From Alphaproteobacteria bacterium (GTDB lineage: Bacteria > Pseudomonadota > Alphaproteobacteria > UBA7985 > JAUIBT01): DNA of 64,000 nucleotides. A program made the translations under genes and the position numbers. Location of the stretch: NCBI GenBank assembly GCA_030428565.1, contig JAUIDR010000003.1, forward strand, positions 1 through 64,000, written 5' to 3'. The notes beneath the pieces are model-generated. The model made no database searches, was not told the DNA's origin, and saw only the letters and a list, made by a program, of their open reading frames with translations. Position 1 is the stretch's first letter. Each line of letters begins with the position of its first letter. This document shows positions 47,712 to 53,400 of the stretch, piece by piece.

Positions 47712-50321
47712 ATGTCATCACGCGCAGCCATGCTTTTTGAGATCGGGACGCGGTGTTTGTTGGCGCTGATGGTTGCCCGGCGGTCTGTCTTTAACGCGAG
47801 CCGAGCGGGCGTGCTGGTTGTGATCGCCAGTCTGGGGGCGATTTTATGGGCCGCGCCGATGGCCAGCGCTCAAAATTCGGGCCCTTACGGGCAAGCGGTG
47901 GTGATTATCATCGCTAACACGGAATACAGCCAGACCGACGACGTTTCCTATGCTGCGCGCGATGCCGATGCCTTCGAGGTTTTCGCCCGCGACGTCCTGC
48001 ACGCGCGCGTTTATCGCTACGACAATATGGGCACCAACCAAATGGGTGAGTTCTTCGGCATCGAAGGGCGTCCGGGCAGCCTCACCAACCATATTCTGGC
48101 GCCCAATACCGATCTTTACATTTACTATGCCGGGCACGGTACCCACGATGCGCCAGCGGACGGCAGCAAGGCGCGCAACTACATAATGCCGGTTGATGCC
48201 AACCCCGATCAGCGCTTTTTGGCGCGTCAGGCCTACGCACTGGAAGATTTAAAGCGCAGCCTCAATACCTTGCAAAATGGGCTGCTGTCGCAAGGCCGCA
48301 TTACACTGGTGCTTGAATCATGCTTTTCGGGCTTGAGCCCCAGCGCCGACGGCGGTGCTTCAAAGGGCTTGGTGCAGGGCGTTTCAGCGCCGCCACTGGG
48401 CCGCGCGCAAGACATTGAGACTCAAGACATCCGTTTGTGGGCGGCGACCTCGCCCGATACCGACTACGCAGTCTGGGATACCGAGTTTCAACGCGGCGTC
48501 TTTACCGACTCGTTGCTGTCGGGACTGCACGGCGGACGCGCGGATGCCGACGGCGATTTCAAAGTCACCGCCCAAGAGATGCAAAACTTCGTCACCTCGG
48601 CGGTTAATCGCCGCGTTGCTGCTCTGGGCAAGGGCGGGGCCAGCTTCCAGCAGCGCCCGATCTTCGTCGGCATGGACGGCGAAGATGTGGTGGTCAGCTA
48701 TCAGGGCGCGACATACCCCTCCTATTCGACCGACAAAGAGCGCGCCTACGTCGAGCGCTTTTTGGGCGAAGAGCTCATACAAGCAGCGTCTGATGCCCAA
48801 GATAGTGGCGATCTTGGCGCTATGAGCAGCGCCGCCGATGGCCTGCGCAACTATCTGACCCAATGCAGCTTTTGCGACGAGCGTACCGAGATCAACCGCG
48901 AATTGGCCAGTCTGAACGATGTGCTGAGCGCTTGTAAGGTCGAGGGGCGCTTTTTGGATCGCATCTTGGCGGACGAAAATATGAGCCGTCTGACGCGCTT
49001 TTTGGATCGCCTAGAGTGCGAGCAAATGCGCCTGGCCACGCAAGCTTGCCTGACCAGTGCCGACTTTGGCAGCGAGGCCTGCGGCTGTTTGGGCGATGAG
49101 GAGTGCCGCACCAAGCCGCAAGTTCAAATCAGCCCCTGCCAACAGGAATGGGATGGGGTCAAGACCGCAGCCGTCAGTGCCAAGGACACGCGCGCGCTGG
49201 CCACCTTCTTACGCCAAAAAGCCAGCGAGTGTTCGGCTGAGATCAAAGACGCTAAGCAGACCTTGGGCCAATTGTGTGAAGATCTAGCGCGCCAGGCGCG
49301 TTTGGGCGACAGCAACGCCAATCGCGCGACGCTGGAGCGCTTCGTCTCCCAGCACCGCGATTGCGCGACGCAGGTGACCTTGGCCAACTCTCAGATCCGC
49401 AGCCTGATAGAGCAAGAAGCGAACTCTGTCTGTAAAACAAGCTATGAAAAAGTGCGCAAGGCGGCGCTCAATCTTCAAGATACCAAAGCGCTGGCGAACT
49501 ATGTGTCGAGCCAAAGACAAAACTGCTCGACGGAAGCTAGGCTGGCCCAGCAGACCCTGGATAAACTGTGTGATGACTTGGCAAGAACCGCGCGCCTTGG
49601 GCGATCGGATGCCAATGCGGCGATGCTGGAACGTTTCGTCACCCATCATGGCGCGTGTCGTTCCCAGGTGGCGCGGGCCCGCGCGCAAATCCGCTCGCTG
49701 CGCGAGGAAGCCCAAGGCGAAGCTTGCCGTGATCGCTTTGATCTGATTAAGGGCTCGGACGACGAAGCCAGCTACACCGATTTCATTCGCTCTAACCCGA
49801 GCTGTAGCGCTGAAGTCGCAGAAGCCTACCGCCAAATCGACCTGTTGGTCAGCCGCAAACGCCAGTGCCAACAAGCATTCGTGCAAGCAGAGAGCCAGAA
49901 CAATAGCCAAGCCTTAGCGCGGTTTATGCAAAATTATAGCCACTGCAGCGAGCAGATCCCTGAGGCGGCCCGGATGATGCTCTATTGGCAACAGCAGGAG
50001 AGCCAACCCGCCAATCCTTACCCCTATGACGGCGTTTATATCGGTCGACGGGGCTATACCGGTTCCGGCCGTCCCAGCAAGACCAAGTGGTGTTTGTCGC
50101 GCTATAACTTCACCATGACCGTGCAGAACCACCGCGTTACCTTTGACTCTGACGGTCGCTATTGGCAGGGCTATGTCAATGACAACGGTCAAATTAAGAT
50201 CGAACACAGCGGTATTTCGCCTGCGCCCAAGCACAATACTTGGATTAGGGGATCGCTTAGCAATGCCGAGATGTATAATGGCTATTGCGGTTATGGCTAC
50301 TTCACCGTCCAGCGCCAATAA
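47712..50321 (+). CDS. Exported caspase-fold protein with 98-residue Cys-rich repeats
   Basis: Protein of 869 residues. A signal peptide or anchor spans about 30-54 (VLVVIASLGAILWAAPMASA). A C14 caspase-like domain follows (about 58-330), with catalytic His142 (YYAGHG) and Cys204 (LVLESCFSG). From about 390 the protein is helical and rich in regularly spaced Cys. Two full repeats of exactly 98 residues begin at Cys476 and Cys574, and a third, diverged one begins at Cys672. Each unit contains two Cys-to-Cys helical hairpins (motifs LxxLCxDLAR, ATLERFV, QIRSL). The last 95 residues form a beta-type domain (YDGVYIGRRGY to the C terminus) with two Cys. The even Cys pattern suits disulfides outside the cytoplasm. 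Function unknown; the repeat region could bind a partner or the envelope. Confidence 0.82.
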   Translation: MSSRAAMLFEIGTRCLLALMVARRSVFNASRAGVLVVIASLGAILWAAPMASAQNSGPYGQAVVIIIANTEYSQTDDVSYAARDADAFEVFARDVLHARVYRYDNMGTNQMGEFFGIEGRPGSLTNHILAPNTDLYIYYAGHGTHDAPADGSKARNYIMPVDANPDQRFLARQAYALEDLKRSLNTLQNGLLSQGRITLVLESCFSGLSPSADGGASKGLVQGVSAPPLGRAQDIETQDIRLWAATSPDTDYAVWDTEFQRGVFTDSLLSGLHGGRADADGDFKVTAQEMQNFVTSAVNRRVAALGKGGASFQQRPIFVGMDGEDVVVSYQGATYPSYSTDKERAYVERFLGEELIQAASDAQDSGDLGAMSSAADGLRNYLTQCSFCDERTEINRELASLNDVLSACKVEGRFLDRILADENMSRLTRFLDRLECEQMRLATQACLTSADFGSEACGCLGDEECRTKPQVQISPCQQEWDGVKTAAVSAKDTRALATFLRQKASECSAEIKDAKQTLGQLCEDLARQARLGDSNANRATLERFVSQHRDCATQVTLANSQIRSLIEQEANSVCKTSYEKVRKAALNLQDTKALANYVSSQRQNCSTEARLAQQTLDKLCDDLARTARLGRSDANAAMLERFVTHHGACRSQVARARAQIRSLREEAQGEACRDRFDLIKGSDDEASYTDFIRSNPSCSAEVAEAYRQIDLLVSRKRQCQQAFVQAESQNNSQALARFMQNYSHCSEQIPEAARMMLYWQQQESQPANPYPYDGVYIGRRGYTGSGRPSKTKWCLSRYNFTMTVQNHRVTFDSDGRYWQGYVNDNGQIKIEHSGISPAPKHNTWIRGSLSNAEMYNGYCGYGYFTVQRQ

Positions 50322-50435: not shown

Positions 50436-53400
50436 CTAGCGCGTTAAGGGAACCAGCACCGGTTGCCCATAGTAAGGTTGCGGGACCAGAACCGGTGCCG
50501 GAGCCGGCGCGGGGTAGTAGACCTGCGGCACGGGCGGTGGCGAGGCAAACACGCCCTGATTGGCATAACCCTGATTGGTAAAGCCCTGGTTCACATATCC
50601 CTGATTGGCAAAGCCCTGGTTGGCAAAGCCCTGACCAGCGTAGCCCGGATTGATGTAGGCTTGGCCGCTGTTGGTAGCGCCGCCAAAACCAGCACCCGGC
50701 AAAAGCGTGTTGCTTGCGGGATCGGCGGTCTGCGGTGATAGTCCCGAAACCAGACCCGAATTTAGGCCAGAAGGATGGTTGCCGACCGACGGCGTGTTCA
50801 CTGGCGTGGGGTTGGTTGTGGTCGGCTGTTGGGGCTGCTGGGGCTTTTGCGGTGCGCGCTTGCGCTCGGCTGCGGCGGTGCGCTTGGTCTTGTGGCCATC
50901 TTGCGCGATGCCCAAAGCGGCCAGGCCTCGTTCGGCCTCGCGATCAAAGCTGCGCCCGACGCGAAAGCCGCGCGCTTTCATAGCGATCGAGAGCTGACCA
51001 TTTTGCCAGTCGCGCATTCCGTTAAACAGGTCAGCAAAAATGGGACCAGCGATGCCGCCACCTGTGGCGCGCTTACCCAGTGATTCGGGCGTATCATAGC
51101 CGACAAACACCGCGATCAAGGTGTGCTCGTCAAAGCCAATAAACCAGGCATCGCGCGCGGCGTTACTGGTGCCCGTCTTGCCCATCAAGGGATAGGGCAC
51201 TTTGGCTTGGGTCGAACGGCCTGTGCCTTGCACCATGACCTGACGCAGCATGCCTTGCAGGTCTTTGGCCGCTTGCTGACTGACCGCCGCTTCGCCATCC
51301 AAGAGCTGACAGAAAGCCGACATGAGGCATTGCTCGCGGCTCTCTTGTTGGGCGCTAAACAGCAGCACGCCGTCTGAACCCTCTACGTGGGCCAGGGTCG
51401 TCGGCTGGCGATAGACGCCGTGGTTGGCAATCGCTGCGTAGGCCGCAGCCAGGCGCATCAAGCTGGTCTCGTTGGCTCCCAGGACCACCGAAGGATTGCT
51501 AAGCGGGGCGTCATAGAGGCGAAGGGCTTGCAGGGTCTGATTGATCGGCCCCAGTCCCAGCTTTTGGTACAGCCGCACCATCGGCACATTGCGCGAATAG
51601 GTCAGCGCTTTGGACAAGCTGATATTGCCCCAAAACTTGCGGTCATAGTTCTGCGGGCTCCAGTCGGGCGCGCCCGGCGAGCGGATGGTCAATTTTTGGT
51701 CAGCCAGTTTGGTGTTTGGCGACAAGCCATTGCTGAGCGCGGCCAACGCCACGAAGGGCTTTATGGTCGAACCCGGTTGGCGCAGGGCCTGGGTGGCGCG
51801 ATTGAAGTGCGAAAGTTTGGGCGAGACACCGCCGACCAGCGCCTTGATTTGGGCGGTCTGGGTGTCCATGACTAGCGCTGCACCGCTGAGCAGCGGCAGT
51901 TGGCGCAAGCGATAGCGCGGCAGGCCTAGGCTGGTGCTTTCTGCTGGTGCTTCGCCATTGTCGCGGGGGGTTGCATCGGCGTTCGCCGAGGCATTCATCT
52001 GGGCACTCACCTCCACATAGGCTGCGTTGAGCAAAGAGGCGGCGTTACCGGGCAAGGCAGGCTCTTCGCCTTGGTCCTTGCCGGGGCCTGTGCCGGGCAG
52101 CTCGGCCGGGCGTTCGGCCAGCGCTTCGACCCAAACAACATCGCCTGGAAACAAAACCTGATCGACGCGTTCGGGGTAGGGGCCGGGGCCTTGGCCAAAG
52201 CGGTAGGGACGCGCCCAGGCCATGTCTTCAAGGCGCATGCGTCCTTCTTGGCCGGTCTTGAACAGCAGGCGTGCTTGTGCGCCGCTGGTTTGAATGATCA
52301 GGGCCGGGCGCCAGCCGGGGAAGACCTGCGCGAGTTGCAGGTCCAAGAAGGCGCGATCCCAGCCTTTTTCGTGCAGATTGAGCCGCTGAATGGGGCCGCG
52401 AAAGCCTTCTTTCACATCCAAAGTAAGGATGTGCTCCTGCAGGGTCATTTCGGCGAGCTGTTGCAAGTCGGGGTCCAAGCTGGAGCGCGCTTGCAGGCCC
52501 TGCGAATAGATGGCGGCCTCGCCAAAGCGCTGTTCGAGCTCACGTTGGACTTCAAGATCGAAATAGCTCGACGGTGAGCCGCGCAGGCCATAGTGAATGG
52601 TCTGAGGCAAGCTTTGGGCTACCGCGTACTGGGCATCGAGTTGCGAAATGATGCCCGCCTCTGCCATGCGCGCCAGCACCCAATCGCGGCGTTCTTTGGC
52701 CGCTTCGGGATGGCGTAAGGGGTGGTAGTTGTTGGGGCCCTTGGGCAGAGCGGCCAAAAAGGCGGCTTCGCTCAGGTCCAAATCTTTGATCGATTTGCCG
52801 AAATAGCGTTCGGTAGCTGCTCCGACCCCATAGGTGTTGACCCCGAAAAAGACCTCGTTGAGGTAGATTTCCAGGATCTGAGACTTTTCAAGGCGTTGTT
52901 CCAGCTTGGCGGCCAGGATGGCCTCGCGCAGCTTGCGCATAAATGTGCGATCGGCGCCGACGTACATCTTGGCGACTTGTTGGGTGATGGTCGATCCACC
53001 CAACGCGCGCTGCTTTTGGTAAGAACGCTTGATGTTGGCAAAAGCCGCGCGCAGCAAGGAAATGCCGTCGACGCCTCCATGCTCAAAGAAGCGCTGATCT
53101 TCGGCGACCAGAAAGGCATAAATCAAGTGGTCCGGCAAATCTTCGTAGGGCACGAACAGGCGATATTCGCGCGACAAGCGGAACATGGCATTGCCGCTTT
53201 GATCGGTCACTTCGGTGGCCACCACCGGGCGATAGCGATACAGCGGTGAAGGGTCCGGCACCGTGCTGGCAATCATAAAAAAGGCCACCACTCCACCAAG
53301 GCACGCAACCGCCAGCCCGCTGGCAATCCAAGTCACGGCAAAAGCGGTGAAACGCAGCAAGGGCAAAGACACCCGCATCGCCAGAGCGCGGAACAAAAAC

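Follow-up and report, generated by a model that had tools for sequence, protein, structure and literature searches.

Gene location and domain layout

An 869-residue protein is encoded on the forward strand at positions 47712 to 50321 of the window, the whole stretch of 64,000 nucleotides that was analyzed. It consists of an export leader (residues 1 to 53, 47712 to 47870), a caspase (C14) domain (residues 55 to 330, 47874 to 48701), a Cys-rich helical segment with eight Cys (residues 331 to 470, 48702 to 49121), six Cys hairpins, and a C-terminal domain (residues 770 to 869, 50019 to 50318) that has two Cys (794 and 859). Promoter and terminator patterns at the gene occurred at chance level only, and a plasmid collection gave no match.

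The hydrophobic core of the leader, at about residues 34 to 45, has a mean of 2.95 over 12 residues and is followed by an ASA|Q cleavage motif. Similar leaders were present in eight of eight relatives, with the leader sequence itself not conserved (35 to 37% identity). The signal sequence reported in a first-pass annotation of this DNA is thus supported, and the protein is expected in the periplasm or at the surface. Translation may in fact begin at Met7 or at Met20.

Caspase domain and catalytic features

The Pfam family PF00656 matched residues 63 to 318 with 37 bits (cut-off, 21.4; E value, 3.7e-9). The match spans both caspase halves in a single score. Catalytic His142 (48135 to 48137) lies within YYAGHGTHD and Cys204 (48321 to 48323) within LVLESCFSG, and the dyad was invariant in 24 aligned sequences. 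In an AF2 model built on the 24-sequence alignment, pLDDT in the caspase part was mostly 80 to 96. VIA-align of model residues 1 to 279 gave a Z score of 21 to MALT1, caspase-3, and caspase-8 over 207 to 215 residues. Structure matches of the full model were confined to the caspase part, and the protein at full length had no match by sequence in the PDB. The earlier assignment of a caspase fold with intact His142 and Cys204 is therefore confirmed by the PF00656 match, the invariant dyad, and the structural alignment. The protein is almost certainly an exported C14 cysteine peptidase, and it is probably active.

Asp84 aligned with an acidic pocket position and was invariant, whereas the residue at Cys-2, where the S1-pocket Asp is expected (pocket position from PMC6426788), is Glu202 rather than Asp. 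Following the pocket logic of that study, an acidic pocket made by Asp84 and Glu202 would select Arg or Lys at P1. An EF-hand-like loop, DADGDFKVTAQE, was read from the sequence in the small-subunit region (residues 278 to 289, 48543 to 48578), and the alignment has a similar acidic loop in relatives. Such a loop could make the activity calcium-dependent. According to a review, p10-less C14 members are calcium-independent (PMC5756287).

Cysteine hairpin repeats

The first-pass annotation had described exact 98-residue repeats with first Cys at 476, 574, and 672. This is correct for two copies, in which Cys 476, 507, 522, and 551 correspond to Cys 574, 605, 620, and 649, each at +98; these blocks are 47% identical in amino acids and 52% in nucleotides. 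In the third block only the first Cys keeps the register. Its Cys residues (672, 698, 719, and 745) follow one another at 26, 21, and 26 residues, where the first two blocks have 31, 15, and 29, and the ungapped identity is 9%. The underlying unit is a single Cx25-30C hairpin of 46 to 52 residues with two Cys, present in six copies. The proposed Cys-divided helical hairpins are thus retained, but as units of this length and not of 98 residues. From the unit profile and the Cys spacing, hairpins 1 and 2 were placed at residues 476 to 521 (49137 to 49274) and 522 to 573 (49275 to 49430). Hairpins 3 (574 to 619, 49431 to 49568) and 4 (620 to 671, 49569 to 49724) are the +98 copies of hairpins 1 and 2, respectively. 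Hairpin 5 (672 to 718, 49725 to 49865) lies outside the 98 register and is followed by hairpin 6 (719 to 767, 49866 to 50012).

The unit profile, which was built in part from these copies, recovered all hairpin copies, with per-genome E values down to 2.5e-21. Both Cys were kept in 30 of 30 aligned units from six hairpin-bearing proteins, partly by construction as the units were cut at Cys. As judged by the profile, the recurrence of the hairpin is not due to chance. The ortholog in genome G002 (contig C97; 85% identity) has a hairpin layout identical to that of the window protein. In the ortholog in genome G001 (contig C6; 67% identity), three near-identical hairpins of 47 to 49 residues replace the 98-residue pair. 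The exact spacing of 98 is therefore most likely left over from a single duplication of a hairpin pair in some members of the genus, not a functional ruler.

In the AF2 model, the repeats form an alpha solenoid in which short helices occur beside long ones (pLDDT mostly 80 to 95; 24-sequence alignment). The helical repeats, at a pLDDT of about 80 to 94, support the hairpins that had been proposed from the sequence, and the disulfide pairing itself is one that we infer. The number of noncatalytic Cys is even (22 or 26) in each of nine mature proteins, which are related to one another; the window protein has 22 and one catalytic Cys. Each hairpin is probably closed by one disulfide. When the repeat and terminal regions were searched alone, as the first-pass annotation had proposed, no annotated Pfam or NCBIfam family scored above its cut-off, and the hairpin profile returned only noise from the PDB.

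Other alphaproteobacterial caspases contain a Trp-anchored unit (W type) with the pattern WxxI..S....YLxxFPxGxFaxLAxxR. When a profile built from 30 Cys units was compared with one from 15 W units, hhalign gave a probability of 91% and a score of 29.0, whereas the highest score in 100 column shuffles was 14.3. The Cys-unit profile also matched a frame of another G001 caspase (contig C53) with an E value of 4.1e-4. In the Cys units, the Trp is mostly replaced and the Gly of PxG has become Cys. By these profile comparisons, the C-type and W-type repeats are homologous. No convincing Cys hairpins turned up beyond the genus in the profile search (2 of 385 genomes and one weak match, E value of 0.008). 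Taken together, the profile similarity and this restriction to the genus indicate that the Cys repeat would be a disulfide-braced variant of the W-type repeat, which is known yet unnamed as far as the searched libraries show. Hairpin units in the C-terminal parts of three further proteins (L017, L018, and L052) have kept the Trp but also contain, at the turn, a Cys pair (YLSSCQPVCAF). These units are possible intermediates between the two types.

C-terminal domain

The first-pass annotation closed the chain with a separate beta domain. A separate, conserved domain of 100 residues was found, 80 to 91% identical in the two orthologs, but the beta strands are predicted with low confidence (pLDDT about 30 to 40, 40 when the domain was folded alone, and below about 50 in the full AF2 model). 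The domain had no match elsewhere among 385 genomes of the class, its sequence returned only noise from the PDB, and it had no match in PHROGs. DUF7154 (PF23673) scored 18 to 19 bits against a cut-off of 27 in all three orthologs (E values, 0.0014 to 0.0037). No DUF7154 member was found in 289 genomes of the class, and the control genomes of that search were likewise without a match. The score below the cut-off could be fortuitous or could point to a distant relationship. A relationship to the FDGxWxG tails of L045 or L026, as a divergent form, was not supported by hmmsearch or hhalign and was dropped. The disulfide form of the hairpin and the conserved terminal domain are the genus-specific elements of the protein.

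Orthologs, paralogs, and selection

Full-length orthologs were confined to the three genomes of the genus (G000, G001, and G002), and were absent from the order's eight remaining genomes and from 385 genomes of the class outside the genus. The caspase half resembles many exported caspases across the class at about 28 to 37% identity. A regular expression for order-level caspases returned nothing. In the window genome, at least six genes are caspase-like. One of them (L051, 2102 to 5299, reverse strand) combines the caspase-like part with PG_binding_1-like and FGE-sulfatase domains, a published caspase combination. An exported caspase from another alphaproteobacterium (L043, 961 to 2826, forward strand) has a tail that scores just above the cut-off of the NCBIfam LIC10280 family.

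Each of the three genus genomes also holds a head-to-head pair of paralogs (L049, L053, and L054) with caspase domains about 50% identical. All six paralogs share the caspase and the Cys-rich segment, and their tails are PG_binding, PAN, or SH3. One paralog of the pair has Cys hairpins followed by a PG_binding_1-like tail (22.2 and 17.9 bits against a Pfam cut-off of 23) and in G001 also PAN_4, both just under the cut-off; the other ends in SH3_3. By Pfam, the window protein has no PG_binding, SH3, or YARHG module, such modules being in the paralogs. In all three genomes, the two divergent exported caspases are flanked by an exported protein with TSP3 repeats (calcium type) and a further open reading frame (L049, 3548 to 13999; also L053 and L054). 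This conserved cassette of TSP3 protein and paired caspases may be a functional unit.

In comparison with the 85% ortholog, pN/pS was lowest in the Cys-rich segment (0.07), followed by the caspase (0.08) and the terminal domain (0.09), and reached 0.19 in the repeats. In comparison with the 67% ortholog, it was 0.15 in both the caspase and the terminal domain, 0.24 in the Cys-rich segment, and 0.50 in the repeats, the alignment of which is uncertain in this pair. Synonymous sites were near saturation in these estimates. The caspase, the Cys-rich segment, and the terminal domain are under strong purifying selection. Selection on the repeats is relaxed and the stalk drifts, as expected for a spacer of tolerated length.

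Gene neighborhood and proposed role

In G000 and G002, the gene lies between an ammonium transporter gene and a convergent gene for a class A penicillin-binding protein; a gene for an S49 peptidase lies beyond. In G001 it is located elsewhere and adjoins uvrB-like and undecaprenyl-diphosphatase-like genes, named from their sequences. G002 keeps the window order but the G001 neighbors differ, so the gene has no conserved operon partner. The C terminus of the neighboring penicillin-binding protein (about 50550 to 50640, reverse strand) has tandem F/Y-x-NQG repeats (GFANQGFANQGYVNQGFTNQGYANQG), a run that differs in the G002 ortholog.

We propose that the protein works in the cell envelope. The hairpin stalk, presumably braced by disulfides as a variant of the W-type repeat, would be a spacer or a protein-binding arm. 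The swappable C-terminal module would fix the enzyme to an envelope ligand, by analogy with the PG_binding, SH3, and PAN modules, which probably have this function in the paralogs. The result would be localized cleavage of envelope proteins in processing or quality control. We are confident of the identity of the protein as an exported caspase-family peptidase. The overall explanation, an envelope C14 protease placed by its C-terminal module at the end of a braced hairpin spacer, is the one that we favor with some reservation, and the specific role in localized processing or quality control is tentative. A role in envelope stress, which had also been suggested, is possible.

Alternatively, the enzyme could be secreted for nutrition or surface remodeling and act on foreign protein outside the cell, attached through its terminal module to a particle or to the surface of a cell. 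Bacterial metacaspases in water have been suggested to degrade extracellular protein (PMC4933709), and disulfide bracing suits an exposed protein. However, no secretion signal was recognized beyond the Sec-type leader, and the modules of the paralogs are of the peptidoglycan type. We consider this explanation unlikely.

Some other bacterial caspases act in conflict systems. A defense or conflict effector, in which the terminal domain or the repeats detect that an envelope is foreign or damaged and unleash the caspase to kill the cell itself or a neighbor, would be in keeping with the turnover of repeat number and make-up between species. The paralogs also match the NCBIfam family "caspase, EACC1-associated type," although far below the cut-off. 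However, no PADLOC family scored above noise (the best E value was 0.18, from helical stretches only), and there is no partner gene. The ammonium transporter and penicillin-binding protein neighbors are replaced in G001, and the terminal domain is strongly conserved, not variable. With an isolated gene among housekeeping neighbors and under purifying selection, the self-versus-foreign effector of the first-pass annotation is not upheld, and a conflict role is very unlikely.

Also very unlikely is a genus-specific envelope sensor-protease, in which an envelope ligand is bound by the disulfide-stapled stalk together with a terminal domain of new fold, and these two parts gate the caspase in the periplasm; if true, it would be a bacterial counterpart of an initiator caspase outside the cytoplasm. 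Least credible is a redox-gated enzyme with the disulfides of the hairpins and the Cys-rich segment as a switch, so that envelope reduction or misoxidation alters protease activity. The many noncatalytic Cys would be in keeping with it, but outside the cytoplasm paired Cys ordinarily form structural disulfides, and the repeats diverge quickly.

The envelope protease that we favor belongs to the exported bacterial caspases, a group that is common in Alphaproteobacteria. The genus offers a small natural series of one caspase with three different tails, so the role of the tail is testable by comparing paralogs. The genus also illustrates a possible route from a Trp-anchored hairpin repeat to a disulfide-braced one.

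Comparison with known caspases

Bacterial metacaspases are abundant in Alphaproteobacteria and frequently begin with a helix, possibly a signal peptide; their partner domains include repeats, FGE-sulfatase, and peptidoglycan-binding domains (Asplund-Samuelsson and others, 2012; PMC3501461). Coggill and Bateman (2012; PMC3355149) described a secreted Bradyrhizobium caspase, A5ECX2, with a signal peptide, a caspase domain, and two C-terminal YARHG domains, which are small, helical, and repeated, and for which peptidoglycan binding was suggested. YARHG differs from the helical hairpin described here, and Cys pairs were not described for it (PMC3355149). Secreted caspases with peptidoglycan-binding or YARHG tails have thus been published, so this kind of protein is already known.

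The closest likenesses are exported alphaproteobacterial PF00656 proteins of the orthocaspase type, such as L045, L043, and L040 and, in the window genome itself, the C89 protein, which have a leader, a caspase, and homologous helical hairpins as in the window protein. L045 and L043 also have a C-terminal domain after the hairpins, but that of L045 has no sequence match to the terminal domain described here. The W-type caspases have Trp at the start of the hairpin and SH3_3 or other tails, whereas the window protein has a Cys pair. The paralogs in the genus share the Cys-rich segment and, in one of the two, the Cys hairpins, but they differ in their tails (PG_binding with PAN, or PG_binding-like with SH3_3) and, unlike the window gene, have a conserved TSP3-repeat neighbor. 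The W-type caspases, the paralog tails, and the two published studies contradict the earlier statement that no known architecture matches. MaOC1 of Microcystis, the sole orthocaspase characterized by 2017, and the metacaspases are similar to the window protein in the p20 fold and the His-Cys dyad, and the window protein may also have their acidic pocket for basic P1 residues. However, metacaspases have a p10 domain, and the window protein has Glu instead of Asp at Cys-2. The new elements are the Cys hairpin and the terminal domain, the exported caspases themselves being already known. The window protein is a genus-specific form within the widespread exported bacterial caspases and not a new type of system.
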